Of a stretch of DNA of 31,976 bases, positions 643 to 29,798 are shown piece after piece (position 1 is the stretch's first letter; the number at the start of each line of letters is the position of its first letter). The notes under the pieces are model-generated. The model did not search any database, was not told where the DNA came from, and saw only the letters and a program-made list of their open reading frames with translations. Both the position numbers and the translations under genes were made by a program. The DNA comes from a virus, in IMG/VR virus record IMGVR_UViG_3300028559_000132, positions 1 through 31,976 of that record. One strand, written 5' to 3'.

Positions 643-1056
643 TCCTTGAGCGCCAACTGCACCCTGTGTTCCCTGCGCCCCTTGGCGGCCCTGCGCCCCT
701 TGAACTCCTTGGGCACCGGCAACTCCGGTTGCACCGCCTGCTCCTTGTACACCCTGTCTTCCAACAGCGCCCTGTGTGCCTTGAGCACCGGCTGCGCCTT
801 GTGCACCTTGAACTCCTTGAGGGCCTGTAGTTCCACTCACACCCGCTGCACCTTGAACACCCTGACGACCTTGGGCGCCAACTGCACCCTGTGTGCCTTG
901 TGAACCTTGCGCGCCTTGGGCACCAGCAACACCTTGAGCGCCAGCCGGTCCTTTAATATTGGCTTGTGAACCAATCCATACACCGGTAGAATCGATAACC
1001 GCTTGGTTACCAACTGTTAACCCATTTTTAGCTACGAATGGACGGGTGTTACTCAA
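1..1056 (-). CDS. Collagen-like tail fibre protein, 3'-truncated by window edge
   Basis: Open frame of 352 codons running off the left end. It starts at TTG (1056-1054), preceded by AGGA in AGATAGGAACAACG, and overlaps the stop of the upstream collagen gene by 8 nt, which suggests coupled translation. No in-frame ATG lies nearby, and the N-terminus aligns with the neighbour: [10 protein letters not shown] here versus [10 protein letters not shown] there, then [10 protein letters not shown] versus [10 protein letters not shown]. This paralogy supports the TTG start. From about residue 36 the protein is uninterrupted Gly-X-Y rich in GAQ, GVQ, GPQ and GTQ triplets, the collagen-like repeat common in phage fibres, expected to form a trimeric stalk. 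The C-terminal domain is outside the window, so the receptor-binding tip is unknown. A 102-residue super-repeat lies within the stalk. Function as an adhesin stalk is inferred from family and neighbours. Confidence 0.85.
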
Positions 1057-3061
1057 CGTTGTTCCTATCTTCTAATGTTTTCAGTAGTAACTGAATCTCT
1101 TTCTGTTGTTCTTTGATAGCTTGTACAACGACTGGAACTAAACGTTCGTATTGAACAGTGATAAAGTTCAGGCCGGTCACGCTATTACCATGTTCATCAA
1201 CATCGAATGGTGCAGGTTTCACGATTTCAGGAATGAACGTCTGAACTTGTTGTGCGATCACCCCCGCATGTCTAGTATAGTCATTGTATCCGAATTTCTC
1301 AGCGTACTTATTCTGTGTGAAATAAATCCCTGTCAGCGAAAGAACTTTTTCAAGGGAATTGTCGATGACTTTAATTTCTTTTTTGAATCTTCTGTCAGAG
1401 TAGAATGCGGTAACATCACCTGTTGCACGAATGGTTCCTGTAGGACCTGCTGGAGTGTTCAATCCCAAAGCTGACACATTTGGAGTCGATGTAGTTCCTT
1501 GTGGACCTGCTGGACCTTGCGCGCCACTCGCTCCGGGAGGGCCTGCAGTGCCCTGAAATCCTTGTGCGCCGGTTGGGCCAGTCGGTCCTGGCGGGCCGGT
1601 AACCCCATTAACTCCTGTTGGGCCAGTTGCGCCAGTTGGGCCAGTAGGACCTGAGCCTCCGGCTGACCCTTGTACTCCTTGTCGTCCTTGAGCACCAGCT
1701 GCACCTGTAGTACCTTGTGCGCCTTGTGCCCCGGTAGCTCCCGCAGGGCCTGTGGGTCCAGTGGGTCCAGTGGGGCCCGTAAAACCTTGAAGCCCGGCAG
1801 GGCCTGTGGGTCCTTGAACACCAGTAGGCCCTGCTGCTCCCTGAGAACCTTGAACCCCGGCAGGGCCGGTCGCACCTCCGGGACCAGTGGGACCAGTTGC
1901 ACCTGCTGGGCCGGCTGGACCCTGAACTCCTTGACGACCCTGGGCGCCCGGCGCACCTGTTGCTCCTTGTGATCCAGTAGCACCTGTAGTTCCATTGGCA
2001 CCGGGGGCACCTGTTCGACCTGTTGCACCTGCAGTTCCTGTAGTTCCGGCGGTGCCCGTTGCTCCGGTTAGACCAGCCGGCCCTGTCGCACCTGCAGAAC
2101 CAGTAGCACCGGTCGGCCCTTGAGTACCAGTAGCACCGGTAGCTCCTTGTGCCCCTTGTGTCCCTGCTGGACCGGTTGCACCTGCAGGGCCGGTGGGCCC
2201 TTGAAACCCGACTGACCCCTGTGTTCCTTGTACTCCTTGACGACCTTGTGCACCGGGGGCACCAGTAGCACCTGTTGTGCCAGTAGCACCTGTTGTGCCA
2301 GTAGCACCTGCTGCTCCCTGTGATCCAGTAGCACCAACAGTTCCAGCAGTTCCGGCGGTTCCAGTTACTCCGATTACTCCGGCAGGACCGGTTGCACCTG
2401 CAGTTCCATTAGCGCCTGTGGGCCCTTGAACACCAGTAGCACCAATAGCTCCTTGTGAGCCTTGTGTCCCTGCTGGACCTGTTGCACCTGCAGGGCCCGC
2501 GGGCCCTTGAAACCCAGCTGGCCCTTGTGTTCCTTGTACTCCTTGTGTTCCTTGAACTCCTTGAGCACCTGCTGCTCCCTGTGATCCAGTAGCACCTGTT
2601 GTGCCAGTAGCACCTGCTGCTCCCTGTGATCCAGTAGCACCTGCTGTGCCAGTAGCACCTGCAGTTCCGGTAGCGCCCGTGACGCCTGCAACACCTTGAA
2701 CACCTGTTACACCCGTCGCGCCGGCTGCTCCTTGAGCACCGACTGCGCCCTGAACACCGACGGGGCCCGTAGTACCAGTTACGCCAGTTGCTCCCGCAAC
2801 GCCTGCTGCTCCCGCAACGCCGGATAACCCTTGAGTACCTTGGGCTCCTTGAGAACCTTGAACGCCGCTCACACCGGCGGCTCCTGGAGTTCCCGCTACA
2901 CCCGCAGCACCCGATACTCCCTGTGCCCCGACAGCGCCTTGCTGGCCTTGTACACCTTTAACGTTTGTTTGAGAACCAACCCATGCACCAGCAGAACTAA
3001 TGACCTCAGTTGATCCGACAGTGACGCTATTCTTTACTCTAAAGTCTTTGTCGTTTGCCAC
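1049..3061 (-). CDS. Collagen-like tail fibre with C-terminal S74 intramolecular chaperone
   Basis: 670 aa, GTG start (3061-3059) with AAAGGGAAC as ribosome binding site and a perfect TATAAATA late promoter upstream. Residues 1-36 form a short non-collagen head shared with the downstream paralogue, presumably the attachment end. About residues 37-520 are Gly-X-Y repeats rich in GAT, GAQ, GPA and GPT. The last ~116 residues form a Peptidase_S74 / endosialidase chaperone domain: SDRRFKKEI begins at Ser555, followed by [10 protein letters not shown] and a C-terminal helix. In this family the domain trimerises the fibre and cuts itself off just before the conserved Ser of the SD-R-K motif, so mature fibre probably ends near residue 554. 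It is likely a receptor-binding or whisker-like fibre; the particle location is inferred. Confidence 0.9.
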
Positions 3062-15439: not shown

Positions 15440-15808
15440 ATGATCACACAGCAGCAACCAAGACCTATCTGCGCTCATTGCAAGTTTTCTCTTGCTAAAC
15501 CAAACGGGAAGAGCAAGCATGGATTTCAGAAGTGGCACAAGTACTGTGTTGACTGCGCTAAGGCCATGTATAACGGTAGATTCAAGCATCTACAGCACAA
15601 GCAAGTCGTATGTGAGCAGTGCGGTTTTATACCGGAAGATAAGTGTCAGCTAGACTTAGTATTAAAAGACGGTAACAAGAACGACAGGTCAAAGAAAAAT
15701 CTATTGACACTTTGTGCTAATTGTTCTAGACTACACAATAAGAAAGTTCGTACTGGTAAGAAATCAATACTAAACGCAACAGTAGACGGTGATACTAGGA
15801 TTTCTTAG
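15440..15808 (+). CDS. Zinc-binding HNH-like protein, degenerate active site (122 aa)
   Basis: The only plus-strand gene. Cysteine pairs occur at CAHC and CVDC in the N-terminal half, and at CEQC and CANC in the C-terminal half, consistent with two zinc sites. The C-terminal part, CEQCGF, CQLDLVLKDGNKNDRSKKN, then LLTLCANCSRLHNKK, follows the HNH-endonuclease pattern in which the equivalent stretch reads LDVDHIDG with CHRL. Here the first catalytic His position is occupied by Leu and CHRL reads CSRL, so cleavage activity is doubtful; DNA binding may remain. Start ATG at 15440 is fixed by an in-frame stop 6 nt upstream, and the nearest Shine-Dalgarno (AGGAGA, 15412) is too far for an ordinary site. 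The stop overlaps the convergent nuclease stop by 4 nt (TTAG). Confidence 0.75.
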   Translation: MITQQQPRPICAHCKFSLAKPNGKSKHGFQKWHKYCVDCAKAMYNGRFKHLQHKQVVCEQCGFIPEDKCQLDLVLKDGNKNDRSKKNLLTLCANCSRLHNKKVRTGKKSILNATVDGDTRIS

Positions 15809-16248
15809 TTGCACCAAGATTGCTTTGTATCACCATAATATTCACGAGCAAAGCCGTTCCTGATCAGCAATGAACGAAGACTCGTACCATCAAGAATCAT
15901 ATCACCTAATATTCGACCACCGTACTTGTCCCACTCATATATAATAACTTGATGCCTTGTAGTGGATTTGATTATGTTTTTAGTAAAGACAGAAGCCTGC
16001 TCTCCGAGTCGTCTTTCACTCTCGCATTGACCGCGAAAGCCTTTTTCAGGAGTATCCACACCAAAAATTCTTACTGCAAGTTCCGGCTTTAGTGGAGCAG
16101 GCAGAAAAGGTGCTGCAATCACTACAGTATCACCGTCGATTACTCTTACAACTATAGTATCATATGTCACCCCAACTGGAGTTTTCTGTGCAAGTGCCGG
16201 AGTAACTAGTGTCAACACTGTGACGATTGCAAGTAATAGTTTTTTCAT
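15805..16248 (-). CDS. Secreted staphylococcal-type thermonuclease (SNase)
   Basis: 147 aa. Residues 1-20 form a Sec signal peptide: KK, hydrophobic core LLLAIVTVLTLV, then ALA before Gln21. The rest is a complete staphylococcal nuclease (SNc) domain, small for the family. Calcium and catalytic residues are visible: Asp38 and Asp40 (VIDGDTV), Arg60, Asp65 and Glu68 (VRIFGVDTPE), and Arg112 (GGRILGDM). Members cut DNA and RNA at phosphodiester bonds with calcium. With the signal peptide it should act in the periplasm or outside the cell. It could degrade incoming competitor DNA, salvage nucleotides or cut extracellular DNA; none of these is shown. Ribosome binding site CAGGAAC, own late promoter, and a stop interlocked with the plus-strand gene. 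Confidence 0.88.
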   Translation of the reverse strand: MKKLLLAIVTVLTLVTPALAQKTPVGVTYDTIVVRVIDGDTVVIAAPFLPAPLKPELAVRIFGVDTPEKGFRGQCESERRLGEQASVFTKNIIKSTTRHQVIIYEWDKYGGRILGDMILDGTSLRSLLIRNGFAREYYGDTKQSWCN

Positions 16249-16283: not shown

Positions 16284-16967
16284 CTATCTGGCTCTGACTA
16301 TGAATTCCTTTGAATTCAAGTTATTAGTGATCCAAACAATTTTATTCTTGTCGATCGGTTCTGCAAAAACTTGAGCTTGTCCAAGTTTTTCGGCATTATG
16401 CTCTTTTCGCCAGCTCATCTCATCTTCGATGTGTTCACGCAGATCATCTCCGTCAGTGAGATACTGTTTATCTTTATCATAGATATCGTAATATTTTGGA
16501 TTTTCTTTGTTTCTAAGAAAATACAGGTTGTTGAATCTAACGAACCCAGTCTTCTCGTACTTTCTTACTATGTCATCGATCTCATTGTTTGAGAGTATTT
16601 TATACAGGTGTCTTTCTTTGGATGTCTGTCGATAACGAAGCCCGGCAAAGTATTCTGCAACACGCTTGTCCGATGTCCAAGATTCTAATGTCCGATTTTT
16701 CCAATCATCATAATTTTGAATTGGGATGATGCCTCGATACAACATGATCGTATCACCGGGAATAGAATCACGCACAGGCTGGAATGCTGTTTCTATCTCT
16801 TGTGCGATATCGTCATTGGCTTCGATGTGTTTGGCTAAGCTACCAGTATGCCAGTTTGCTGCTTCCCAAGAATCAATAGCATACCGTGCTGCACTTGACA
16901 AGTTTGCATAGGCTTTCATCGCCAATGATATCGCTTTGCTTTCAGTGAGTATTTCTATGATTCGCAT
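16284..16967 (-). CDS. ADP-ribosyltransferase-like protein, possible packaged head effector
   Basis: 227 aa. N-terminus MRIIEILTE followed by Ser matches the form of T4 capsid-targeting peptides (internal proteins begin MKTYQEFIAE and are cut after Glu by gp21). The body fits the R-S-E class ADP-ribosyltransferase layout: LYRG at Arg78, ESWTSD at 95-100 followed by AEYFAG, and a late strand QAQVFAEPI at 197-205 where the ExE catalytic motif is expected. T4 Alt is a packaged ADP-ribosyltransferase that modifies host RNA polymerase, so an Alt-like role is plausible. However, the ExE position reads QxQ (Gln197, Gln199), so activity is uncertain; Glu203 nearby is an alternative. The box TATAAATA lies 5 nt before ATG with no leader, predicting a leaderless mRNA. 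Confidence 0.6.
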   Translation of the reverse strand: MRIIEILTESKAISLAMKAYANLSSAARYAIDSWEAANWHTGSLAKHIEANDDIAQEIETAFQPVRDSIPGDTIMLYRGIIPIQNYDDWKNRTLESWTSDKRVAEYFAGLRYRQTSKERHLYKILSNNEIDDIVRKYEKTGFVRFNNLYFLRNKENPKYYDIYDKDKQYLTDGDDLREHIEDEMSWRKEHNAEKLGQAQVFAEPIDKNKIVWITNNLNSKEFIVRAR

Positions 16968-16994: not shown

Positions 16995-18614
16995 TCATTT
17001 TAGTGTCTGTTTCTCAAGATCAAATCTTCTTTTTTCTGTCTGTAGAAACAAAAATAATTTTGTCCTTTTGATAGCTTTGAAGGCTAAATTTTCTGGCTTA
17101 TATTCTGCACCAGGCGAACCATCTAGAACTTCGTTTCGTTTATTTTGAACAAGTGCAAAAGATTTGAGTGCAGCGTTCATTGCTTGCTCCTTGTCCTGCG
17201 TTTTGTCGAGTGTACTATTATATGCCTCTAGTATTGAATTATACCATGGAATAAAATATTTTTTGATATTATCTATTTCTTTATTTTTATCAGGATTCGG
17301 TTTCCTAATCCAATCACCTTTAAGGACAGAATATACGGCATCAGAAGAATGAACCGCAGTTACTGGCTTAATAAAAAATTCAACAGGATATCCAAAAATA
17401 GTGTAATTGTTAGTATCATTGAAGTACTTGCGTTGCTTTTCTAAAATACCTGCCATCTCGGCATTTGTCGGATCACGATCAACAATGATATGAACATCAA
17501 CATCAGACATATCGTGGTATACGTAGTTTGCTAAAGAACCCTTGAACTGAATATCGACAACCCTAGCTTTGTTTATTCGCATTTCTTTGATGAACCGATC
17601 AGCCCACGTAAGCATTGCTTTTTGAATGTTAGGTTTTAGCTCCTGTGTTGATGTCCAAAACTCTGGGTTTAGAGAAGACTTCAACGGATACAAGTCTGTT
17701 AAAAATTTGTCAAGTTCGGGAATAGGTTTAGTAGTTTGTTTCTGTTTTGAAACGTATTCATCTACTTGTTCTTCAGTTACTCTGGTCCAAATGTCTCCGG
17801 AGTTTGGTGTCTTTAAACTAGCTTTTCTTTGCTTTAGGACATCAATCGCTGCACTTCCTGCAAATGTGTTGTTGTTTATAGTCTTCACGATATCGGCAAC
17901 AGTGTATCCTGCGTTAATCATGTCATTGACATCTTCGTATTTTTCCATCTCTTTTGGCCATATGCAAATATTGTAATGGCTAAGGATAGATTGAACCATC
18001 TTAGCGACTGTAGTTGCTTTGTCAAGTTCATTGTCATATACAATGATGTATTGTTGCTTAGGGTAAGGCAAATATTTGAGATTTAACGTTATGTCACCGC
18101 CGCCGGACATACCAATAGCATTTGGTATAAATGCTGAATCAATCTCACCTTCTAGGACATAGATTTTCTTTTTAGGATCTATTTTAGATAACCCAAAAAT
18201 ATTTGGTTTTTTTCGGTCTGAAGAGGTATTTAGTGCTAAATAACGAGTCTTTGCATCCGGGTCAACTGCTCGGCATTTTATAGCAGTGACAATTCCAGTT
18301 TTATCAACGTACGGAATCAACAGATAGGCACCTTCTACTCGCAGATCGGGGACATTCATATATCGTGTTAATTTATCATTTGCCCAAGATTTAAGGTTAT
18401 CAGCTACAAATATATGCTGTTTAGCAAATGGAGTAAGATTTCTTGACATTGCATATACAACTGCTGGATGTTTTGGGTTGGTTTTTTCTAGTCGTACTAA
18501 AGAAGGAGCAAGCTTTTCTAATTTATTGATTGTCAGAGTTTCTTTATCATCAGGCGTAGGTTTGCTGTTCTCATTGATGATATCAACGTATTTTCTAAAT
18601 AGGTCTGCACTCAT
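16995..18614 (-). CDS. TOPRIM primase-like / nucleotidyltransferase fusion, possible packaged protein
   Basis: 539 aa with two recognisable parts. Residues ~90-245 are a primase-type TOPRIM domain: VLEGEID with Glu155, IVYDNE with Asp194 and Glu196 (DxE instead of DxD), and YEDVNDMINAG with Asp228 and Asp231. Residues ~315-440 are a polymerase-beta-fold nucleotidyltransferase: KGSLANY (Gly359-Ser360) followed by SDVDVHIIVD (Asp371, Asp373), then a VEFFIK strand. The AVYSVLKGDWIRKP stretch after it is typical of nucleotidyltransferases in uncultured T4-like phages. The N-terminus MSADLFRKYVDIINE ends in I-N-E, compatible with gp21-type cleavage. Substrate unknown; RNA primer synthesis is not implied because no helicase-binding or zinc domain is seen. 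Ribosome binding site CGGAG; late promoter 18 nt upstream. Confidence 0.75.
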   Translation of the reverse strand: MSADLFRKYVDIINENSKPTPDDKETLTINKLEKLAPSLVRLEKTNPKHPAVVYAMSRNLTPFAKQHIFVADNLKSWANDKLTRYMNVPDLRVEGAYLLIPYVDKTGIVTAIKCRAVDPDAKTRYLALNTSSDRKKPNIFGLSKIDPKKKIYVLEGEIDSAFIPNAIGMSGGGDITLNLKYLPYPKQQYIIVYDNELDKATTVAKMVQSILSHYNICIWPKEMEKYEDVNDMINAGYTVADIVKTINNNTFAGSAAIDVLKQRKASLKTPNSGDIWTRVTEEQVDEYVSKQKQTTKPIPELDKFLTDLYPLKSSLNPEFWTSTQELKPNIQKAMLTWADRFIKEMRINKARVVDIQFKGSLANYVYHDMSDVDVHIIVDRDPTNAEMAGILEKQRKYFNDTNNYTIFGYPVEFFIKPVTAVHSSDAVYSVLKGDWIRKPNPDKNKEIDNIKKYFIPWYNSILEAYNSTLDKTQDKEQAMNAALKSFALVQNKRNEVLDGSPGAEYKPENLAFKAIKRTKLFLFLQTEKRRFDLEKQTLK

Positions 18615-18632: not shown

Positions 18633-18640
18633 TATTTATC
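18633..18640 (-). promoter_or_regulatory. Late promoter GATAAATA overlapping a stop codon
   Basis: Minus-strand GATAAATA 18 nt upstream of the TOPRIM fusion. The TAA of the preceding 39-aa ORF lies inside the octamer. Confidence 0.6.
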
Positions 18641-18903: not shown

Positions 18904-18911
18904 TATTTATA
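18904..18911 (-). promoter_or_regulatory. Late promoter TATAAATA, leaderless spacing
   Basis: TATAAATA overlapping the TAA stop of the HNH endonuclease and exactly 5 nt (CAACA) from the ATG of the 48-aa ORF. Confidence 0.7.
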
Positions 18912-19689
18912 GTTCTTTACAGTTACTACCGTGCCAACGAGAATAGTTACTGGGACCAAAAGTTTTATGACAATGTGGGCAAGTTTTCTTTAAGTCTTCT
19001 CTGTTATTAGGATTATTTTTTGAGAACTCTTCTTTCATCCTAACAGCAACTTTATCACCGAATCCTTCTGGTTTAGATACACCTTTTTGCTTTATTGAAC
19101 GTTTTATCTTTTGTTCTTCGCTCATTGGTCCCTTAGGTTTGCCTTTGCTTGCAAGAGACATTTTTAAACAAGTTTCTGTAGTACGCTTTTGTCCAGTTAC
19201 TTTGGCGATTCTTTTTAGCTGACCCTCAGCTTGTTTAATAGGATCTATCTTTCTGTTTTTTGCAGCACGTACTAGATTTGCTCTGTGTTCATCAGTTATT
19301 TCTACGCCTCCCTTGTTCCAAGGAACTAAGTTTTTTTGCTTCATAGTCGTTGAATGATTCAGCGCATGTTCTATTCTATATTTTTCATACACACGAGAGG
19401 TTACCGATGAAGAGTATCGTTGATGATTTTCGCTCATTGCTCGCATTCCCATTAATGCGTATAGCATTTTACTTCTTGCTTCACCTTCTGTCATCTTGAT
19501 CAATAGCCAATGACAAATGAAGTGTTCTCGGGCAGACAGATAAGTTAAGTTACTCTTGTCGTTTGATCCACCCAATGATTGCGGAATGATATGATGGCGT
19601 TCCCTACCCGGCGCTTTTTTCCAGTTTCTTGCAACGGAGCGTTCTATTAACTTGTTATACACGTTAGTATATTTATTTTCTTTGAACAT
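18907..19689 (-). CDS. HNH homing endonuclease with C-terminal zinc finger
   Basis: 260 aa free-standing mobile endonuclease. HNH core at residues 31-60: RHHIIPQSLGG (His32-His33), NDKSNLTYLS (Asn47), REHFICH (His56, His60). The middle is basic, with NUMOD3-like DNA-binding stretches (SLASKGKPKGPMSEEQK). The end is a small zinc finger, CPHC followed by SRWHGSNCK (Cys237, Cys240, His253, Cys257), of the RWHxxNCK type often seen at the C-terminus of T4-like phage homing enzymes. It sits just beyond the gp23 terminator and has its own late promoter and ribosome binding site (AAAGGTG). It probably spreads its own locus into phages lacking it by cutting a nearby site and prompting repair. The target is unknown; the adjacent gp23 region is the natural candidate. 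Confidence 0.88.
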   Translation of the reverse strand: MFKENKYTNVYNKLIERSVARNWKKAPGRERHHIIPQSLGGSNDKSNLTYLSAREHFICHWLLIKMTEGEARSKMLYALMGMRAMSENHQRYSSSVTSRVYEKYRIEHALNHSTTMKQKNLVPWNKGGVEITDEHRANLVRAAKNRKIDPIKQAEGQLKRIAKVTGQKRTTETCLKMSLASKGKPKGPMSEEQKIKRSIKQKGVSKPEGFGDKVAVRMKEEFSKNNPNNREDLKKTCPHCHKTFGPSNYSRWHGSNCKEL

Positions 19690-19808: not shown

Positions 19809-21005
19809 CTATTGGAATGTAAGGTTCTGAACTGCAATCTCGCCGACATAATCGGCAGCATTACCGAAACTGCTCGCGGTGTTCGTCAATTCTATGTAGC
19901 CATATCTCGTCATGAACGAAACGACCGGTTCGAATGTTGACGGATCAAGAACAACGCCAGAAGACATCAACGGAATGTATGGGCAGTAGAATGCTGCTGC
20001 GTCAGTTTCCGATGAACCCTTGTATCCTACGAGTACTGGCTGAGTGTCTGGTGCATATGAGTTAACAAATACACGCATTGCACCGTTAAGAGTACCAACA
20101 AACTTGGTGTTAGTTGGGGCTTCGAAAGTGCCTTCAGTTGTACGAGCGAATGCTGAAGTTGTTGCTGACTGTAGAACAGTAAGTGAAGCTGGTGAAACAA
20201 CAGCCCAGTTACCTGCACCACGACGAGTACGCTGTGCGATCAAGTTTGCAACACGGTTGATGAGTACTGCAAGAGCAGCATGTTCGTCACCAACGTAAGT
20301 AGCAGTACCTGAAACAGTTGCTTGGTTGAATGTGTATTCAGTTGAAGCAAGAGTTGCAAGTGAGAGCAAGATTTCTTGGTCGATTTCAGCAGTGATTTCT
20401 TGTGCAAGAGCAGCCATGATTTCTGCTTCTACGTCGATACCGTGCTGTGACTGTGCATCCTGTGCAGCTTCGAAAGTCCAACGAGCTTGTAGCTTGCGTG
20501 ACTTGGCTTCTACAGCCTGACGAAGGATCTGAACAGAAATCTGCTTACCACCGTTACCTTCTAGTGATGCAGTATCAGCACCAGTGTAGAAACTAGTAGT
20601 GGTTGCATCTGAAGGAACGCGTGAGTATGCCTGTGCGATCTTGAATGGTGATAGTGCTTCTTCACCTGCAGTTACCGGAGTAGCTGCTGCTGAAGTGTCG
20701 CCCAATGATTGAGCATAACGAACACGTAGAGTGTGGATCTGACCAACTGGACCAGTCATTGGCTGAATGCCGACTAGTTCGTTAGCGATAACAGTTGGCA
20801 TAACACGACGAATTACTGGAAGAATAACGCGGTTTAATGTTGCGATATTACCAGCAGTAGTGGTACCAGCCGAAGATTCAGCAAGAAGCTGCTTCTTTGT
20901 GTTTTCGAGAAGGACGCCCATTGTAGAGCGACGATTTCCTCTTAAGCCTTCAAGTAGGGCATCTTTAGTTTCCCCCCAACGACTTTCTAAAAGTACTTTT
21001 GACAT
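19809..21005 (-). CDS. 23: Major capsid protein gp23
   Basis: 398 aa T4 gp23-family capsid subunit, clearly shorter than T4 gp23 (521 aa). The N-terminal propeptide ends at KKQLLAE before Ser44, the L-x-E site cut by gp21; the mature chain would be about 355 aa. After the cut comes the conserved stretch RVILPVIRRVMPTVIANELVGIQPMTGPVGQI, here spanning about residues 58-93, matching T4 gp23 (VRRAIPNLIAFDICGVQPMNSPTGQ). The C-terminal region has the family's RYGY motif (FMTRYGYIEL). Excellent ribosome binding site (CAGGAG). It lies 21 nt after gp22 and is followed by a strong terminator. No late octamer is seen directly upstream, so it may depend on the upstream gp20-22 transcript. Builds the hexameric capsid lattice. 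Confidence 0.96.
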   Translation of the reverse strand: MSKVLLESRWGETKDALLEGLRGNRRSTMGVLLENTKKQLLAESSAGTTTAGNIATLNRVILPVIRRVMPTVIANELVGIQPMTGPVGQIHTLRVRYAQSLGDTSAAATPVTAGEEALSPFKIAQAYSRVPSDATTTSFYTGADTASLEGNGGKQISVQILRQAVEAKSRKLQARWTFEAAQDAQSQHGIDVEAEIMAALAQEITAEIDQEILLSLATLASTEYTFNQATVSGTATYVGDEHAALAVLINRVANLIAQRTRRGAGNWAVVSPASLTVLQSATTSAFARTTEGTFEAPTNTKFVGTLNGAMRVFVNSYAPDTQPVLVGYKGSSETDAAAFYCPYIPLMSSGVVLDPSTFEPVVSFMTRYGYIELTNTASSFGNAADYVGEIAVQNLTFQ

Positions 21006-21026: not shown

Positions 21027-22130
21027 TTACTTAAGTCCAGCCAGACGCTTGAGGTCGATCACGTTGTCTTTTGTATACGAATCGTCTTCATGTTGCTTCT
21101 GACTAGATTTGTTACCGGTCGCTTCTATGATCACAGATTTAGCTGCCTTGTCGGCTGTTACTGAACCAGTATTAAGAACGGCTGGTAAATACTTATCGAA
21201 TGCGTTTTGCAGCTTACCTGTTTGTACGCTTTCTAGCAAAGTCTTCATTACTTCAGCTTTCTCTTCGTTGAGCGGGGATAATAGTTCATCCATAACTTTT
21301 GCTCTCTGAGATGATTCTTTAATAATTCTTACTTCACGATCTTTGTTTTCTACGAGCTTTGTTGCATGTTGTAGTTTTGCAGTAGCTTCAGCTAACTGTC
21401 GATCTTTATGTGCAAGAGCTTTCATTACCTTGCGAGTCTCAGCCTTATCATTGAGATAAGTTACACTGAATTCACTTGCGAAGGATTCGAAAATCTTGCG
21501 ACCGAAGTTATTCTTTCTAGCAGACTTGATGTCTTCCTTAAGTTGTGATAATTCTCCCTTAAGTTGAGATGCGACCGCACCGCTAACTTTCTTTGCGCTC
21601 TCAGCGATAAATCTCGCCTTGAGTGCTTCCAATTGCTTGCGGCCTTCAGCGACGAGTTTGACTTTTGCTTCTACCACTGCTTGTCTATCAACTGCGAATT
21701 CTTTGATTTCACGTGATAGAGCGTGTACGATAAAACCTTCTAGCTTCTTTTGGTTTTCCATCTGAAGTTTGCGATCATTGCGTAGTTCACGGATTTCTTC
21801 GGCTAGTTTAGTAACCATGAAATCATTGAACTTAGTTGCACTTTCACGTAGTTTTAGTTGTGATTTAACGCGGTCGTCATTCATTGCTTGTCTTTCAGAT
21901 TTAAATTCTGCAATTTCTTCTGAAAGATTTGTAGTCATCATTTTGTCGAGAGCTTCTACCATCACATTACGATCATGTTCATAACGTTGTGCGAATTCTT
22001 CATGTAATTCTGCACGTACTTCTTGGCGAGCCTCGTTCAACCTAATTTCCCAGGCTTCATTTAACTGATTCCCGATATCTTCGTTGATCAGGCCGCTTTC
22101 TAGTAGTGGTTTTATAATGTCTAATTTCAT
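21027..22130 (-). CDS. 22: Prohead core scaffolding protein gp22
   Basis: 367 aa, highly charged and almost wholly helical, with long predicted coiled coil (heptad-like runs such as EEIAEFKSERQAMNDDRVKS). Position directly before gp23 and behind gp21 is that of T4 gp22, the core scaffold that shapes the prohead and is then digested to peptides. Several L/I-x-E sites are visible: LLE at the N-terminus (KPLLESG), FIAES and LLESV, as expected of a gp21 substrate. The lysine-rich C-terminus (NVIDLKRLAGLK) resembles the end seen in related scaffolds, which contacts capsid protein. Ribosome binding site AAAGGA 11 nt before ATG. The GIY-YIG endonuclease separates it from gp21. Confidence 0.9.
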   Translation of the reverse strand: MKLDIIKPLLESGLINEDIGNQLNEAWEIRLNEARQEVRAELHEEFAQRYEHDRNVMVEALDKMMTTNLSEEIAEFKSERQAMNDDRVKSQLKLRESATKFNDFMVTKLAEEIRELRNDRKLQMENQKKLEGFIVHALSREIKEFAVDRQAVVEAKVKLVAEGRKQLEALKARFIAESAKKVSGAVASQLKGELSQLKEDIKSARKNNFGRKIFESFASEFSVTYLNDKAETRKVMKALAHKDRQLAEATAKLQHATKLVENKDREVRIIKESSQRAKVMDELLSPLNEEKAEVMKTLLESVQTGKLQNAFDKYLPAVLNTGSVTADKAAKSVIIEATGNKSSQKQHEDDSYTKDNVIDLKRLAGLK

Positions 22131-22152: not shown

Positions 22153-22908
22153 TTATAGCTTAAGTTCGTTGATGAGGCGTTTTACTTCTTCACCAAAGAA
22201 TCGTTGTACTCGTTTACAGTTATCACCGTGCCATCTAGCATAAGTGTTTACTGCATAGTATTGGTCACAATGTGAACAATACGTTTTAGGTTGCTTTTTA
22301 CCAAACATTCCGTTTAATTGTCCGATTTTGAATTCAGACATTTTTTGTTTGGCTCGGGCCGCTCTAGGTTTTTTCAGTTTCTCAATAGTCTGTTGAGAGT
22401 GTTTTTTTCCATAAAACGGGGCATCCTTTCCGCTTCTAGACATACCGTGCATGGGGTTGTTACTTCCTGATACATCAGTATGACCAATTTTCATGTTGGT
22501 TTTTACCTGATCAGTAAATCCTAATTTCCATCCTTGTTCTAAATATATGTCAATGTCTTCCGCACAAACCATAATATTTTTTTCTTCTTTGTGCATTCGT
22601 TTTTTATTCTGTGTTGATGTTACATCTGGTGTTGTACAGTTATTTCTGTTGAAACTCTGCGGATTGTTTCTAGCATCAGACACATGTAATAATTCTTTTT
22701 CTACTACCCTCATCCATTTTGATGATCCATATGCTATTATTTCTCTTTGCCAGTCGCTAGGGGTAGCTTCTATTAGAGGCTTTACATATTTACTAGAGCA
22801 TATATATCCGTCGTCAGGGTGGCAATTTTTTGAAGTCCTAGATCCAATGTACCATTTACCAGATGGTAAATGAGTCCAACGATATACATATGACAAGTTA
22901 GAAGACAT
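22153..22908 (-). CDS. GIY-YIG homing endonuclease between gp21 and gp22
   Basis: 251 aa. N-terminal GIY-YIG nuclease: YVYRW (7-11), KWYIGSR (18-24) with Arg24, and the Glu of EKELL near residue 72. The middle carries NUMOD3-type repeats (NNPMHGMSRSGKDAPF, FYGKKHSQQTIEKLKK). A zinc finger follows, CSHC then ARWHGDNCK (Cys211 to Cys231), related to that of the HNH enzyme. It begins 1 nt inside the gp21 stop (TAATG), so translation is coupled. The last 12 residues (EEVKRLINELKL) resemble the last 12 of gp21 (KEILKLIEELKI). These enzymes cut a specific site in endonuclease-free relatives and are copied in by repair; gene 21 or 22 is the likely target. Confidence 0.9.
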   Translation of the reverse strand: MSSNLSYVYRWTHLPSGKWYIGSRTSKNCHPDDGYICSSKYVKPLIEATPSDWQREIIAYGSSKWMRVVEKELLHVSDARNNPQSFNRNNCTTPDVTSTQNKKRMHKEEKNIMVCAEDIDIYLEQGWKLGFTDQVKTNMKIGHTDVSGSNNPMHGMSRSGKDAPFYGKKHSQQTIEKLKKPRAARAKQKMSEFKIGQLNGMFGKKQPKTYCSHCDQYYAVNTYARWHGDNCKRVQRFFGEEVKRLINELKL

Positions 22909-23552
22909 TATATCTTCAACTCCTCTATTAGTTTTAGTATTTCTTTTTGTGCGCGGCGTTGCAGGGCTTGCTCTGTCAAAATATCTCCCTCTTTCATTGC
23001 CTGTAATAACTTGTATCCTGTTTTACTATTGAGAACGCCTTCATAAATTGCTTTGGGATATGCGTTTGGTGCACTAGGTTGGGCAACGATATCAACAGTG
23101 ATGATTTCAAAATCACTGACTTTACCATCCATGTCGTTTACATTACCTGATCCACGACTGGATACACCTAGTTTAACTCCTGATTCCAACATTGTTCTTA
23201 CGAGTTGACCCATTGGAGTAGGGAGAATTTTTAGTTTGCCTATTCCGTTTGGTCCGTCCATCCACATGCTTGTGATCATGTGTGATACACGGTCTAGGTT
23301 GATTTTAAGATCATCTGGATGATCTACTTCCCCCAAAACTGAATAGCCTTCACTGACTTGTTTGTTGAGTGTTTCTACTGCATTTTCGATTTCATGGACA
23401 GGGTAAATACGCTCATTTGCGTTCTTTACGCCGCCTTGAATGAAAATCCCTTTCATGTACAGGGTTTTTAGATCGCCGTCGCCTTCTTTTACAGACTCGA
23501 CGATCATACCTGCTTTGTCAAAGGTAAGATTTTCTCTAAGATACAAGGCCAT
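22908..23552 (-). CDS. 21: Prohead core protease gp21
   Basis: 214 aa serine protease of the T4 gp21 family. Catalytic His78 lies in GEVDHPDD, Ser131 in KLGVSSRGSG, and an acidic residue in FEIITVDIVAQPSA. The preceding stretch GGVKNANERIYP is typical of the family. It cuts gp22, gp23 and other head proteins after [L/I]-x-E and then digests itself; an ILTE site at 191-194 is a candidate for self-cleavage. Located between the acidic core protein and gp22, as in T4. Ribosome binding site AAGGAATCTGAGAGC. The C-terminus borders the endonuclease insertion and may have been rewritten by it. Confidence 0.95.
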   Translation of the reverse strand: MALYLRENLTFDKAGMIVESVKEGDGDLKTLYMKGIFIQGGVKNANERIYPVHEIENAVETLNKQVSEGYSVLGEVDHPDDLKINLDRVSHMITSMWMDGPNGIGKLKILPTPMGQLVRTMLESGVKLGVSSRGSGNVNDMDGKVSDFEIITVDIVAQPSAPNAYPKAIYEGVLNSKTGYKLLQAMKEGDILTEQALQRRAQKEILKLIEELKI

Positions 23553-23567
23553 TTGCTCTCAGATTCC

Positions 23568-24581
23568 TTATCGAATTGGTTTACGAGCAGAACGTCTTGA
23601 TTCTGCTACTGGGCTCTTAGTGTTTGATCCATCGTCACCAAACTTTGGCTTAGGTGCTGCGCTCAAATCTTGTGATTTCTTGCCTGGTGTGTTCTTGAAT
23701 GAACCCGCGCCCTTTAGATCCTTTGCAGTAGGAGCCGGACGGCCCTTTTCATCAGTGCCGCCAAAGTTTACTGGATTGCTATCCATGCCAGCTTTGCCTG
23801 AATTGAAAGTGACCGGGCTTCTAGTGTATGAACCGTTGTCTCCGTGAGTTACTGAAACCTTTTGAAGTTGAACAGCTTCATTGGTTGGCAGCATACCGCG
23901 TTCTTTGCGTATGTCATATTCATCTTCAGGGCTTAGGTTACCTAATTCACCAAAGTCGTCGGCGAACTGACGCGCGAGGTCTCTCATGTATGCTCGGGCT
24001 TCTTCAGGTGTTTTAGGCTCTCTTGGTAATTTGCCGAGGTTCTTGCCGTATGCTCTGTCTAACCTATTCTTTATTTGTTCCTTCGATGATTGTGGGTGAC
24101 CGCCGGTGTCATGTTTGCGACCTTCGGCTATTTCCTCAGCATCAGCATCTTCGAAGTCTTCGTCTTCGTCTTCGTCTTCATCTTCGTCTTCATCTCCGCC
24201 CATGATGTCTTCAAATTCAGCCATCAATTGGTCGAGCTTGTCTTCGATGCGTATTACTGCATCTTCGATTTCATCATTTTCATCATCATCCATGTCCATG
24301 TCCATGTCCATGTCTTCATCTTCGTATTCTGAATCATCATCCTCGAGGTCGAAATCGATTTCTTCATCGTCGTCAGACATGCCTTCTTCTTCGGCATTAA
24401 TCTCGTCCATCAACTCGCCCAGGGCATCGCCGCCCATTCCCTCTTCCATTTCATCAGCCATGATTGACTCAAAAATTTCGCGTGATTTTTCAACAACGAT
24501 TTCATGGAATAGTTCGCGAGCTTGATCTTCATTCTCGTTTATTACGAGGTTGATTAGTTCTTCATATTTCTTAATATTCAT
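23568..24581 (-). CDS. Acidic prohead core protein (gp67/gp68 position)
   Basis: 337 aa, extremely acidic. Residues ~25-150 contain long Asp/Glu runs, MDMDMDMD and EDEDEDEDEDED, the latter from repeated TCTTCG/TCTTCA hexamers on the plus strand. The C-terminal half is basic and disordered-looking (SRRSARKPIR at the end) with repeated motifs THGDNGSYTRSPV and FGDDGSNTKSPV. The slot between portal and gp21 is occupied in T4 by the small prohead core proteins gp67 and gp68; gp67 is likewise acidic and cut by gp21. Sites resembling gp21 cuts include LVINE near the N-terminus. Assigned by position and composition, not by alignment. Ribosome binding site CAGGAGAA. Probably occupies the prohead core and leaves as peptides. 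Confidence 0.65.
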   Translation of the reverse strand: MNIKKYEELINLVINENEDQARELFHEIVVEKSREIFESIMADEMEEGMGGDALGELMDEINAEEEGMSDDDEEIDFDLEDDDSEYEDEDMDMDMDMDDDENDEIEDAVIRIEDKLDQLMAEFEDIMGGDEDEDEDEDEDEDFEDADAEEIAEGRKHDTGGHPQSSKEQIKNRLDRAYGKNLGKLPREPKTPEEARAYMRDLARQFADDFGELGNLSPEDEYDIRKERGMLPTNEAVQLQKVSVTHGDNGSYTRSPVTFNSGKAGMDSNPVNFGGTDEKGRPAPTAKDLKGAGSFKNTPGKKSQDLSAAPKPKFGDDGSNTKSPVAESRRSARKPIR

Positions 24582-24989: not shown

Positions 24990-27900
24990 TTATATTTGCA
25001 TTGGACTGTTCGGTGAAGGGGTACCGGGGCCGCCCATTGTTGGTTGTCCGGCAACATCACTTGCTACTGGACCTGTTACTTCATCTGGCATGTTGCCTTC
25101 TTGATCTATAGAAGAAAGTTCGTCTGCCATAGTTTGGTCTGCATCGAAATCTCCAGTGGACACCCCGATATTGCGTAGATCAGAGCCTTGGGGAGACATA
25201 TCAACTTCTTTCTTGTTTTCTTCTTCCCACATTTTTTCGTTCTTTTTGATTTCTTCTTCGGACAAGCCCAAAAATCTTTCAAGAGCAAACCTCTTAGACA
25301 TGTAAGGAAATGCTTCCATAGAAGCGAAGGTTTGCACCCGTGCTGTATCCATCTCTGCTTGCCGATAAGCAGCAAAATTTTGGGGAGGATTAAACGCAAT
25401 TTGAAACAGACCAGTATCAATATTGAATCCTCTCCAGCGAAGGAACAGCTTGAACTCTTCATCTAATTTCATACCGATGTAATTCTGCAATCGTTCACAG
25501 TACTGATTGAATCTGAATTCTTGAATCATAGCAGTACCGACACGGCCATCGTTCATTGGTGTCGTGTTGTCATCTGGTCCAGTTGGCAGATAACTTGACG
25601 GTACACGAAGACCACGAGCAAGACGATTGTTGAAGTATTTCAAGTCATCGATCTCACCAAGATTCTGTCCACCAGGAAGAACTTCAACTGACGACCCACG
25701 ACCTTCAGCGGTGACAGGAAAGAAGTAATCCTCATTCATTGAGTTTTTGACGAAAATACCCGCGTCAATAGCAAAAGTATGATAATCGTGCCACTTATGT
25801 AGTCCATCAATAGTGATAGTTCCAGTATCTCTGCTTGATACTTTAGTTATCTTTACTACCCTGTGATTGAAGTTGTCTATTTCACGAACGAAATGTTTCC
25901 AGTTGTTGTATCCGAACTGATTAAGTAATCTATCAAGCTTACTATAACCAAACTTAGTAAAATCTATTTTACAATGAGCATTTTTATAATCTAATGAAGT
26001 GGAGTTAAGTTCTTTAACTAAGTTCAATAGTGTTATACTATTATCGCATTCTTTCAATACATCATTTTTATTTTTAGTACCACTTTTAACGATGTCCGAC
26101 ACGATTTGTAACATATCAAACGACAAGTTCAACGATTGATTCTTAATCTTTACGCGATGCTCGCAGTTATCTTTAACAATCTTCATCATTTCGGGATTGC
26201 TAGCAAGATATTCTTTGCGTGACTTGCTCATGTTTTCTTTATATCGTGTAGCAACATCTACATCATTCTGTCTCAGCCAAACAGCTTTTTGTTGTGCGTT
26301 TCTAATATTCCATAGTTTCGCTAACCTATCTTCTTCTGATAAGTTTTCCCAGTATTCTTTGAGTGTATTTGATATCTTAGAAGTCATTTCTTCACGATAG
26401 TCATTAGACATTGTTTCCCAGAAGTCTTTTTTCTGTGCCGCATGATACATTATATGATCAGCTTTGTTCATATAAGTTAGATTTCTAGGATCGTTATTGA
26501 AACGATTATAATCTTTATGATGAATAGTAGTTCTGGGTGATAACACATATTCAGCAAGATAGCTAAACTCTTGGTGCTTGCCCTTTTCACGGAAAAACTC
26601 ACCTACCATTCTATGAGTCCATACCCAAGATTTGGATTCATGATCCCATACTTGCTGATACTCGTTAGTTTTTCCTCCTGACATAGCTTTATTCTGGGTA
26701 TTGAATGCTATCAAACTATCCTGTTCAGTGAGATATTGTGCTTCAACAAAACCTTTACCAAATACCGGCAGTTTATGATCCGGAGTGCAGATCAATGTTT
26801 TACCGTTGTCAAACGTAAGCTCAAGAACTTCCGTGTCTTTTCTAGTAACTCCGGCCCAGTTAATTACGCCCGGTACTATCTTACCAGATTCTGGATCACA
26901 ACTATACGCCCAGTTTTCTTTACCTTCTTCAAACTCTGTAATAATCTCACTCAATGGTAATGTTCTACCATCCAATAATGGAATCTTTGTTTCTAAATCC
27001 AAACATAGGGGATTGTATGAAGCATCAACTATTGACGCTCCGCCATACAACGAAGGAATTCTGCGTTGGTGAATTTCATTCTTGACACGTTCAACAAATG
27101 CCATTGCTAAGTGACTCGGCATGTTGCCAACATCGATCTTGAACATTCTACGTTCAGGAGCACGTTGCACACGATAGATAAGAACAGCGTCTTCTAGTAG
27201 TTCTTTCTGCTTGTAGACCTTGAAGATGTTCTCTAGGATCGACTGACCGAATGGCCAGAATCTGTCAAGTCCTTCTGTTAATGATAAGTGGACGATATGC
27301 TTTGCGTCTATCGCAGATTCACTCTGTCCCAATGTGAATCGTGAGCCCGTAGTATTGTATGGCATTGCAGGAACCGTGTAAGGAGTGTTGGTGCCGCCTC
27401 CGGTACCACCCAAACCAGTTGCAGGGTTAGCAGCAAAGTCAGTATTCGTTTTTTGTGCTACTGATAAGTTCTGTAGGTTGATGTTGATGTCCTTTAAGAC
27501 ATACTGTTCTGGCTTCTTGCCTTCACTCTCGTTGACGATAACTTTAATGACTTTGACCATGTCGACCCAGTATAGTTTGAAGTTTTCGGGGTCGCGCACA
27601 AACACTTGGTCGCCGTACTTTACAACATTGCGGAAAATCTTAAATATACGGCCATTAAATTCATTTAGTTTACACCACTGCTGCAATTGCTTACTTAACA
27701 ACTCTACTTCATGTGGGGTAGGGGTTTCTTTAAATTCGAAAGAAAACGGTGTCTTATTGTGTTCATTTCTTTGGGTAGAGAACTCTGCAAGAATATCTAA
27801 ACATGCATTGATCTCAGCATCAACGTCCATCATTTCATATTGGTTGTAACGTTCGATTCTGTTAGGGTGACCGGTGTAGACTTCAGGAAGCCTACTCATA

Positions 27901-28052
27901 TAATTTTTATAGCCAAACTCGGTGTTATTATAACCGCCGGTCGGCGTGCCATTCTGTCCAGGCGACCCATTCCAAGCCCCGCTGTTGCTGTTAAGCCCAG
28001 AAATAGGACTTGATACACCTGATTTATTTAGGAATTTCTTTTTATAGCTCAT
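24990..28052 (-). CDS. 20: Portal vertex protein gp20, interrupted by an intein
   Basis: 1020-aa precursor: N-extein 1-349, intein 350-770, C-extein 771-1020, so the spliced portal is 599 aa (T4 gp20, 524 aa). Portal features include EMMDVDAEINACLDILAEF near residue 73, VRDPENFKLYWVDM, AIDAKHIVHLSL, VYKQKELLEDAVLIYRVQRAPERR (family-conserved) and, after the intein, SMNEDYFFP followed by VEVLPGGQNLGEIDD. The gene forms the dodecameric ring through which DNA enters and leaves and onto which the head assembles. The intein splits NPL from SMNEDYFFP in one of the most conserved motifs. The last ~70 residues are acidic and disordered. A GATAAATA box lies 6 nt before ATG with no Shine-Dalgarno, so a near-leaderless mRNA is predicted. 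Confidence 0.96.
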   Translation of the reverse strand: MSYKKKFLNKSGVSSPISGLNSNSGAWNGSPGQNGTPTGGYNNTEFGYKNYMSRLPEVYTGHPNRIERYNQYEMMDVDAEINACLDILAEFSTQRNEHNKTPFSFEFKETPTPHEVELLSKQLQQWCKLNEFNGRIFKIFRNVVKYGDQVFVRDPENFKLYWVDMVKVIKVIVNESEGKKPEQYVLKDININLQNLSVAQKTNTDFAANPATGLGGTGGGTNTPYTVPAMPYNTTGSRFTLGQSESAIDAKHIVHLSLTEGLDRFWPFGQSILENIFKVYKQKELLEDAVLIYRVQRAPERRMFKIDVGNMPSHLAMAFVERVKNEIHQRRIPSLYGGASIVDASYNPLCLDLETKIPLLDGRTLPLSEIITEFEEGKENWAYSCDPESGKIVPGVINWAGVTRKDTEVLELTFDNGKTLICTPDHKLPVFGKGFVEAQYLTEQDSLIAFNTQNKAMSGGKTNEYQQVWDHESKSWVWTHRMVGEFFREKGKHQEFSYLAEYVLSPRTTIHHKDYNRFNNDPRNLTYMNKADHIMYHAAQKKDFWETMSNDYREEMTSKISNTLKEYWENLSEEDRLAKLWNIRNAQQKAVWLRQNDVDVATRYKENMSKSRKEYLASNPEMMKIVKDNCEHRVKIKNQSLNLSFDMLQIVSDIVKSGTKNKNDVLKECDNSITLLNLVKELNSTSLDYKNAHCKIDFTKFGYSKLDRLLNQFGYNNWKHFVREIDNFNHRVVKITKVSSRDTGTITIDGLHKWHDYHTFAIDAGIFVKNSMNEDYFFPVTAEGRGSSVEVLPGGQNLGEIDDLKYFNNRLARGLRVPSSYLPTGPDDNTTPMNDGRVGTAMIQEFRFNQYCERLQNYIGMKLDEEFKLFLRWRGFNIDTGLFQIAFNPPQNFAAYRQAEMDTARVQTFASMEAFPYMSKRFALERFLGLSEEEIKKNEKMWEEENKKEVDMSPQGSDLRNIGVSTGDFDADQTMADELSSIDQEGNMPDEVTGPVASDVAGQPTMGGPGTPSPNSPMQI
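25743..27005 (-). mobile_element. Intein with HNH homing endonuclease in gp20
   Basis: 421-residue intein from Cys350 (CLDLETKIPLLDG, block A) to Asn770 (GIFVKN), with Ser771 as the first C-extein residue. Block B is LICTPDHKLPV (Thr423, His426). The C-terminal block is WHDYHTFAIDAGIFVKN, where the usual penultimate His is Lys769. The endonuclease between them is HNH type, not the commoner LAGLIDADG: TTIHHKDYNRF (His511-His512), DPRNLTYM (Asn524), ADHIMYH. Codon boundaries at both ends agree with the DNA. It splices itself out and ligates the portal, and spreads by cutting intein-free gene 20. Confidence 0.93.
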
Positions 28053-28073: not shown

Positions 28074-29798
28074 CTATGAGGCTTTCCATTTCCATGTTGT
28101 CTGACCACAGTCCCATATGCGATCAAACCCACAAGATTGCATAATTTCCCATTCTGACATTGACCCGTCGTAGCCTTCTGCGACAAGCTTTGCCTTTTGA
28201 AATTTATTTCTAGAAAACCGCTTTTTATAATCTGTGTAGCAATATCCAACATTCGTTGATGTGTTGACAAATCCAAGTTGTTTATACACGTTGCCAGTGA
28301 ACCAACGATTATCACTATACGATACTATAGATTTAGGAAAATAAGTTTTGACAAACATAGACATCATTTTATTTGCGCCGCCCACAACACCAGTCGAAGA
28401 ACAATATCGAATCAGTTCCCACTCAACCGTGTTGTTAAATCTTGCCTTACGAAATGTCATTATAGATATCAACTTATCGTTAAATTTCAATCCAATATTA
28501 ACTTTTGCAGGGGCGAAGCCTTGGATGTGATTTTGTTCTATGAACATCTTTGCTTCGTTGTGGCTGATCTCTTCAACTGAGCATTGTCTAGCATACAACG
28601 GCACTGACGATTTACCCAAAATATTTATTAGTATTGCTTTACACTGCTCTTTTCGGTCATCCCATTCGTCTTGAAACATTGTGACAAGCCTGATTCCATG
28701 CTCAGCGCAATGTTTATGCTTACTTGCATGATAATTTCTTGTCCGACTCGACGAATTTTCTGAGTGCCAGTACAATCCTCCGCACTCAATCGCAACATTC
28801 AAATTTGGAATGTAAAAATCTAGCTCTTGCGGAAAAATGATGTTGCGATTTCCTTGTTCGTAAGTAATGTTGATGCTGGTTAGCCATTCTGCTATTTCAA
28901 TTTCAAATTTACTAGACAACGGACGAGCAAACAACTTGCTAGCATCATATTTCTTCGCGTATAGATACAATGTATGTGGGGCTATTTTTAAAATAGTGAT
29001 AGCTTCTTCTCTGGTCTTACCTGATATTGTTTGAGTGAATAGGTTTTCGTCGTCGAGAATTTTTAAGGTATCGTCGGGTATATAGATTCTACTAGCAGCC
29101 CCAACGTTATATCTTTCGAATAAAGTAACTTTTCGTTTTAGATTTACCGTGCTGACATCGTTGTTGGCTTGCCAACTGTCTCTCATCTGTTTGACAGAAT
29201 TTTTGTTCTGTAATGGAAACAGTACCCCGTGTTTTTCAGCATGTGTTGTTTGAGTTTTTAGTTGCTGTGAGCCAAGTTTCATGTGATGTGTTTCACCATA
29301 CCGAACTAAGTTAGTATTCTGCGTTTTAAGTTTTGATATAGTTTTTTCTTCGTTTGATCTACTATTTTTCTTAGATTGGACCAACTCTTGTTGAGACTTC
29401 AGTTTCATATGATGTTCAACACCATATTTTTCTAGGCTAGTTTGTTTGATTCGCTCTTGAATTCCGGGAATTTGCGAAGAATTTGTAACTCCATATTTTT
29501 CCAAAAAACCCTGCTGTTGTTTTTCTATTCTATCTCTTATTACATCTTTGCATTTGTTTCCAAGATCACATCCAGTACGATATCCTGTAGTAAAAGTATT
29601 GAACTTGCGATAGTTTCCATCAGAACATCTCGGGGGTTCACCGTTCAGAACAATGTAAACCTGTTCCATAGTGTTTTTAACTGGATATTGAACTGTAGTA
29701 TGTGTTAGCCACTGAACAATATCAGGACGAGTTTTTAGCCATTTTGGCATTGCACATAACTTTCGGTGTTTCAAAAAGTTTTGAATTTCTGTGATCAT
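28074..29798 (-). CDS. Vsr/EDxHD-type homing endonuclease upstream of gp20
   Basis: 574 aa. The N-terminal half has five spaced repeats of a [E/V]-[K/R]-[Y/H]-[G/N]-[V/E] motif (EKYGVTNSSQ, EKYGVEHHMK, VRYGETHHMK, EKHGVLFPLQ, ERYNVGAASR), a DNA-recognition repeat array of large phage endonucleases. Around residues 295-380 is a Vsr-like nuclease fold of the I-Bth0305I (EDxHD) kind: KFEIEIAEWL (Glu299 or 301), ELDFYIP (Asp327), IECGGLYWHSE (His345), MFQDEWDD (Asp377). The C-terminal region (VSYSDNRWFTGNVYKQLGF onward) is a domain often following such nucleases. It lies directly before gp20 and probably targets that region. CATAAATA sits exactly 5 nt before ATG, so the message should be leaderless. 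Confidence 0.8.
   Translation of the reverse strand: MITEIQNFLKHRKLCAMPKWLKTRPDIVQWLTHTTVQYPVKNTMEQVYIVLNGEPPRCSDGNYRKFNTFTTGYRTGCDLGNKCKDVIRDRIEKQQQGFLEKYGVTNSSQIPGIQERIKQTSLEKYGVEHHMKLKSQQELVQSKKNSRSNEEKTISKLKTQNTNLVRYGETHHMKLGSQQLKTQTTHAEKHGVLFPLQNKNSVKQMRDSWQANNDVSTVNLKRKVTLFERYNVGAASRIYIPDDTLKILDDENLFTQTISGKTREEAITILKIAPHTLYLYAKKYDASKLFARPLSSKFEIEIAEWLTSINITYEQGNRNIIFPQELDFYIPNLNVAIECGGLYWHSENSSSRTRNYHASKHKHCAEHGIRLVTMFQDEWDDRKEQCKAILINILGKSSVPLYARQCSVEEISHNEAKMFIEQNHIQGFAPAKVNIGLKFNDKLISIMTFRKARFNNTVEWELIRYCSSTGVVGGANKMMSMFVKTYFPKSIVSYSDNRWFTGNVYKQLGFVNTSTNVGYCYTDYKKRFSRNKFQKAKLVAEGYDGSMSEWEIMQSCGFDRIWDCGQTTWKWKAS

Follow-up and report, generated by a model that had tools for sequence, protein, structure and literature searches.

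A primase core joined to a nucleotidyltransferase

Analysis of the first 31,976 positions of IMG/VR virus record IMGVR_UViG_3300028559_000132 (the window, at its full length of 31,976 nucleotides) centered on one minus-strand gene at window positions 16995–18614. It is a single open reading frame with its start codon end at 18614, and the 539-amino-acid (aa) product carries in succession a short leader, the core of a gp61-type primase and a Pol-beta nucleotidyltransferase (NTase). The gene, referred to below as the fusion gene, and its parts are as follows.

16995..18614, minus strand: fusion gene (leader, gp61-type primase core and Pol-beta NTase), defined by the open reading frame, homologues L002, L003 and L004, and purifying selection
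18570..18614, minus strand: leader MSADLFRKYVDIINE, residues 1–15, a predicted capsid-targeting sequence (CTS) with a predicted cut after Glu15 (I-N-E↓N, the arrow marking the cut), recognized as a motif at the N-terminus of unrelated proteins and by the gp21 cut motif
17850..18554, minus strand: gp61-type primase core, residues ~21–255 (N-terminal lobe and TOPRIM, zinc-binding domain absent), recognized by phmmer, phrog_47 and phrog_451, and alignment
16998..17717, minus strand: Pol-beta NTase with C-terminal helical bundle, residues 300–539 (Gly359-Ser360, Asp371, Asp373, Glu412), recognized by a 65-member alignment, an AF2 model and Foldseek

A first-pass annotation, made from the sequence without database searches, had described one 539-aa chain joining TOPRIM to NTase. 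The open reading frame was confirmed, and the fusion is also present on three viral contigs, L002 (100% identity), L003 (93%) and L004 (~55%), with the domain order kept in L003 and L004. A profile scan of viral contigs returned only these same three loci, and a scan of genome contigs gave no match. Comparison of the window with L003 yielded dN/dS values of ~0.24 for the primase core and 0.19 for the NTase; both halves of the fusion are under purifying selection. An assembly or frame artefact was dismissed on the grounds of conservation in three contigs and purifying selection. Pfam matches to IZUMO and Rhodanese were below cut-off and were discarded as chance, and membership in a defence system was dropped since PADLOC returned none. 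The architecture as a whole is not described by any family of the libraries searched; the first-pass annotation knew of no described phage protein with this TOPRIM–NTase order. The contig of L004 also carries, at L069:9932-16190 near the fusion, QueD/QueE-like and related genes of the 7-deazaguanine pathway, recognized by eye, and a GTP-cyclohydrolase-like gene at the end of the L004 locus.

Residues 3–255 of the fusion align with residues 83–331 of T4 gp61 (E 1.8e-21; phmmer against PDB sequences; 8dvf, 8gao), and the core matches phrog_47 and phrog_451. By alignment, the N-terminal half is identified as a gp61/DnaG-type primase core comprising the lobe plus TOPRIM, more than TOPRIM alone; the earlier assignment of a primase-type TOPRIM thus stands as to that domain, which is part of a larger and more specific unit. 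T4 gp61 consists of a zinc-binding domain with the helicase-contact motif HIM1 (74–97), an N-terminal lobe (115–216), TOPRIM (217–326) and a C-terminal helix, HIM2; the zinc-binding domain reads the primer start site and carries HIM1 (PMC10359460). The fusion shares with it the lobe and TOPRIM, including the catalytic Glu and the DxE: Glu155 is aligned to T4 Glu234, marked as a catalytic site (PMC10359460), and Asp194/Glu196 and Asp228/Asp231 are also conserved in cyanophage gp61, which upholds the TOPRIM residues first named. Unlike gp61, it has no zinc-binding domain and adds a C-terminal NTase and an N-terminal leader. The gp61 alignment begins after the zinc-binding domain and the N-terminal region has no paired Cys; Pfam and phrog profile searches together with the alignment found no zinc finger, helicase or PriCT part in the protein, as had been read from the sequence. 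With the zinc ribbon absent, recognition of T4-type primer start sites or contact with the helicase through HIM1 is not expected, and the core would at most bind or extend nucleic acid without sequence specificity. DnaG-type cores without a zinc ribbon are poor at de novo priming. The core may be catalytically active, with the chances evenly balanced.

The C-terminal half is, by its motifs and predicted structure, a Pol-beta-fold NTase with GS, DxD and third carboxylate present. For the window protein alone the Pfam match to NTP_transf_2 is weak (E 0.003–0.008), while 54 of the 65 family members match it. Residues invariant across the 65 members include G359, S360, S370, D371, D373, H375, E412, R493, N509 and K513; the four NTase residues singled out at first (Gly359-Ser360, Asp371/Asp373) are thus joined by His375 and Glu412. 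Structure prediction bore out this fold (AF2 model of the domain, pLDDT 91.8) and did not do so for the whole chain, as the full-length AF2 model, built from 4 sequences, was poor (pLDDT 52) and was not used. The best PDB matches in Foldseek were AAD(9) (E 5e-4), ANT(6), CdnC/D/E and MNT. These aminoglycoside nucleotidyltransferases, CD-NTases and MNT antitoxins are the best fold matches, yet with TM-scores of 0.2–0.3 and identities of 9–19%; the similarity is at superfamily level only, so the acceptor cannot be read from structure. Pfam matches of the family are likewise general (NTP_transf_2/Polbeta/MTPAP-like) and point to no subfamily of known substrate. Judging by the intact motifs, the NTase is very probably active.

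The NTase family is large: of 600 candidate stretches from viral contigs, 597 encode relatives. Stand-alone members occur in cyanophages S-CRM01 and MA01, Caulobacter phage Cr30 and Maribacter phage Molly. Elsewhere (L150, L159, L120, L135) members are fused to a CCA-adding/poly(A) polymerase with HD and DUF5661, to a cytidylyltransferase-like domain with DUF5661, to an amidoligase and deaminase, or to a HAD-like domain. The C-terminal half of the fusion shares the motifs and helical bundle of this family and differs in its partner, a primase core. From these arrangements, the phage NTase domain appears to be a promiscuous module.

An N-terminal leader shared by unrelated proteins

The most informative feature of the protein, a leader of prohead-protease type, was missed by the first-pass annotation, as was the position of the gene in a head cluster. 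Leader MSADLFRKYVDIINE is followed directly by N. Viral contigs were scanned with a degenerate DNA pattern for F-R-K-Y-x-D-x-x-N-E that was not bound to start codons, and 60 contig stretches matched. Every one of the 42 distinct motif sequences lay 5–8 residues past an ATG, with an in-frame stop at most 30 codons upstream; a parallel scan with a motif that is partly a leader placed 12 of 60 occurrences at starts, so the 42 of 42 is not a scan artefact. The 47 distinct bodies that carry these leaders fall into 16 unrelated clusters; in 38 of the 42, the leader Glu is followed by A, N, S, G or D. Between the fusion and a sigma-70-region-4 protein of contig G017, the leaders match at 71% and the bodies are unrelated. 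The L004 orthologue aligns with the fusion from about residue 21 only and begins instead with MFISELVE↓G, which looks like an exchange of leaders.

The end of the leader matches the I/L-x-E cut motif of the T4 gp21 protease, which cuts after L/I-X-E; in T4 the first ten residues of IPIII are enough for packaging, CTS fusions are delivered to the host, and the CTS may be the route by which T4-like phages load varied proteins into the head (PMC9026906). All seven leader-bearing contigs longer than 200 kb encode a Peptidase_S77. Like the T4 internal head proteins with a CTS (IPI-III, Alt), the fusion has a short N-terminal leader that ends in I/L-x-E and is common to unrelated bodies, a head-gene neighbourhood and a gp21-type protease at hand; unlike them, it has the leader sequence FRKYxDIINE and a primase core plus NTase as cargo, and its packaging is a prediction. 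To our knowledge, such cargo occurs in no described T4 internal protein.

Two further leader proteins, at L058:3115- (807 aa) and L050:9356- (554 aa), contain additional internal leader-like stretches, for example RKLLDMLDE↓A in L058 and RKYMDYLDE↓A in L050, and are possibly polyproteins cut by the prohead protease.

A second leader type, M-K/R-I-x-E-I-x-x-E, was recognized on the gene next to the fusion.

16284..16967, minus strand: 227-aa protein that starts MRIIEILTE↓S (second leader type) and has ADP-ribosyltransferase-like motifs (YRG...ESWTSD...YFAG), recognized by its sequence and its phiM9 homologue

One form of this type was scanned, and 12 of its 60 occurrences fell at a start codon; it is weaker than the FRKY type and is supportive, not decisive. 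Homologues of the 227-aa protein, 46% identical, are encoded by Sinorhizobium phage phiM9 and Rhizobium phage RHph_I1_18, and that of phiM9 is without the leader residues. The protein gave no Pfam, NCBIfam, PADLOC or PDB sequence match, and its motifs make it a candidate ADP-ribosyltransferase. Similar starts were seen on other proteins: MRINEIITE↓S on a kinase-like protein with a DLHPGN motif (L176:6617-7210), in the slot downstream of gp23 in a phage with a 96% identical gp23; MKITEILNE on a protein behind gp23 in L221 that weakly matches ART-PolyVal (E 0.004); MKISELI(F/L)E↓S, a leader-like start, on a P-loop NTPase-like protein in L030 and L038 (GPMGAGKST / GPMGACKST); and MKINDIITE↓G on the PA5oct core protein gp333, whose GenBank record has an 'ESI-MS/MS' note, like most structural genes there.

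Head gene cluster and a late-promoter-like element

The window contains a head gene cluster in the T4 order 20-67-68-21-22-23, comprising the portal gp20, two small core genes, a gp21-type protease, a gp22-like scaffold and gp23, with the fusion gene behind it.

18633..18640, minus strand: GATAAATA, a T4-late-promoter-like element 18 nt before the fusion ATG with a ribosome-binding site, CGGAG, between, recognized by the distribution of ATAAATA in the window
18907..19689, minus strand: HNH homing endonuclease between gp23 and the fusion gene (PF01844; segD follows gp23 on the T4 map)
19809..21005, minus strand: gp23 major capsid protein, with LLAE↓S in the predicted propeptide (PF07068, E 6e-97)
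21027..22130, minus strand: gp22-like scaffold core (position between gp21 and gp23; phrog_10922)
22908..23552, minus strand: gp21-type prohead protease (Peptidase_S77), the predicted processing enzyme (PF03420, E 5e-28)
23568..24581, minus strand: prohead core protein at the gp68 position (synteny with T4; the PA5oct counterpart, gp332, has an ESI-MS/MS note in its record)

The nearest cultured phages by gp23 are Vibrio phage 2.275.O (67% identity), Sinorhizobium phage Phosso (66%) and the PA5oct group (65%), and the source phage is assigned, by its genes, to the T4 superfamily as a jumbo-type member. All 15 copies of ATAAATA in the window are on the coding strand, against 6.5 copies expected over both strands, and 12 of them precede a gene start by no more than 60 nt. 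The putative promoter element supports late expression of the fusion gene.

The stretch behind gp23 is highly variable in related contigs, often with a homing endonuclease and in some then with leader-tagged genes of different kinds. Leader-tagged proteins found there include a sigma-70 region 4 protein (L167, E 9e-15), P/Q-rich proteins (L170, L171) and one with FRNYIDLINE (L194). The L167 gene (L167:1979-2455, minus strand) lies behind gp23 and a homing endonuclease and encodes 158 aa, leader MSVDLFRKYIDIINEN followed by sigma-70 region 4; the product is possibly a virion-delivered sigma-factor fragment.

Proposed role of the fusion protein

Leader and head-cluster position together point to a head-packaged, host-delivered protein rather than an ordinary intracellular enzyme. 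Adding the intact active sites, the sharing of the leader by unrelated proteins, the late-promoter-like element and the protease gene, we propose that the fusion is probably a capsid-packaged, gp21-processed and ejected two-enzyme effector of a T4-superfamily jumbo-type phage; within this proposal, the gene evidence makes packaging and ejection highly probable. Packaging, cleavage, ejection and catalysis are all inferred steps of the following model. The fusion would be made late, together with the head genes, and its 15-residue leader would bring it into the prohead core, where the gp21-type protease would cut after Glu15. The remaining ~524 aa would be kept in the head with the DNA, enter the next host along with it and act ahead of phage gene expression. 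There the zinc-ribbon-less gp61 core would bind nucleic acid, with extension or priming at non-specific sites as a further possibility. The NTase would transfer a nucleoside monophosphate to an acceptor, for which the guesses are a protein, a nucleotide signal or an RNA end; the RNA end is a tentative assignment with somewhat less than an even chance of being correct. The role guesses of the first-pass annotation had been RNA end modification and a defence or anti-defence enzyme.

Several observations weigh against this proposal. The fusion protein is known from genes, not from a virion proteome. In L004 the leader belongs to another type, for which support is weaker, and the gene is not in a head cluster. 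Searches of cultured phages did not find the FRKY-type leader, either by tblastn with 21 aa or, in PA5oct and Vibrio phage 2.275.O, as the FRKY pattern allowing 3 mismatches; given its absence from the cultured phages searched, virion-proteome data do not bear on this leader type. By analogy, a primase core that has no zinc ribbon may bind nucleic acid only. The contigs of the window (32 kb) and L004 (63 kb) are incomplete, so that a separate gp61 in the same genomes as the fusion would be a supposition drawn from relatives.

Those relatives bear on an alternative in which the fusion is the phage's own replicative primase, now without a zinc ribbon (whose place a separate subunit may have taken) and with an NTase added, and in which the leader is unrelated to packaging. 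The intact primase catalytic residues are in keeping with it, as are the failure to find a second gp61 in the incomplete 63-kb contig of L004 and the location of a stand-alone NTase five genes from gp61 in the freshwater cyanophage S-CRM01 and in MA01. However, relatives whose head genes are 75–96% identical to those of the window (gp23 96% and gp21 82% in G013; 93% and 75% in G032) have a normal gp61. Close relatives G013, G026, G032 and G049 encode gp61 proteins of 324–326 aa (that of G013 read from an internal start only) that form one lineage, with the zinc-region cysteines and a mutual identity of 59–80%; in G013 and G049 this gene and the head cluster are more than 100 kb apart. BLAST of the fusion core against these proteins gave nothing better than E 0.07, while it is 31% identical to gp61 of S-CRM01 (E 8e-30); on this comparison, the core is judged not to be an orthologue of the close relatives' gp61. 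The leader, moreover, is shared with 15 other body clusters that are unrelated, the sigma-region-4 protein among them. We consider this alternative improbable.

Alternatively, the leader could be a docking or localization tag for another late process, such as recruitment to another machine, and the protein would act in the cell that produces it. N-terminal position and sharing by unrelated bodies indicate an address tag only. The I/L-x-E cut motif of the prohead protease at the end of this tag, the small residues that follow, the position of leader-tagged genes beside gp23 in several phages and the presence of the protease gene in these phages make such a destination quite improbable. A purely structural role as a late internal head protein, with enzymatic domains incidental or dead, would suit the several leader-tagged bodies that are low-complexity, P/Q-rich and without enzymatic look, but is very improbable for the fusion, in which the active-site residues of both domains are retained at 55% identity (L004) and selection is purifying on both.

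Relation to injected polyvalent proteins

The packaged two-enzyme effector proposed here invites comparison with polyvalent proteins. Toprim primases and Pol-beta NTases are both among the domains of these injected proteins, and the Toprim primases among them occur only in elements with type IV secretion system-like transfer (conjugative elements) and in no phage (Iyer et al. 2017, PMC5512222). Like polyvalent proteins (PMC5512222), the fusion has disparate enzymatic domains in one chain and is predicted to be injected; unlike them, it has no zincin protease, ArdC-N or other hallmark domain, and Pfam gave no match in it to domains of the polyvalent network (zincin peptidase, ArdC-N, PBECR and others). 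A more far-reaching reading, which we regard as doubtful, is that the fusion would reach the host in the virion and there, as a primase/NTase without sequence specificity, initiate priming or end repair, either on the phage genome as it enters or on host RNA, making it the phage equivalent of the primases that accompany the DNA of conjugative elements. It would then be one cargo of an exchangeable slot behind gp23, with the leader marking a class of injected proteins, including the sigma-70 region 4 protein, in PA5oct-related jumbo-type phages.

If the proposal holds, a short recognizable leader loads diverse enzymes into the head of PA5oct-related jumbo-type phages and could be used as bait to list injected cargo from sequence alone, so that what phages inject before gene expression would become directly testable. 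The fusion would also be the first phage case of an injected Toprim primase, reported so far, in the open-licence literature, for conjugative elements only.

Other genes of the window

The portal gene gp20 (24990-28052) contains an intein that carries an HNH homing endonuclease; the portals of relatives L167, L171, L173 and L174 are 589–599 aa and intein-free. Adjoining the portal gene, 28074-29798 encodes a 574-aa DUF7487 protein with a weak restriction-endonuclease-like end, a possible homing nuclease. A Staphylococcal-nuclease-like protein with a Sec-type signal peptide is encoded at 15805-16248 and has its own CATAAATA element upstream. At 15440-15808, on the plus strand, lies a 122-aa HNH/zinc-ribbon-like gene that is found in many relatives in the same place and in the orientation opposite to gp23. 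The stretch 1-3061 encodes long collagen-like G-x-x repeat proteins of the tail fibre type, one of them with a possible peptidase/chaperone domain at its end.
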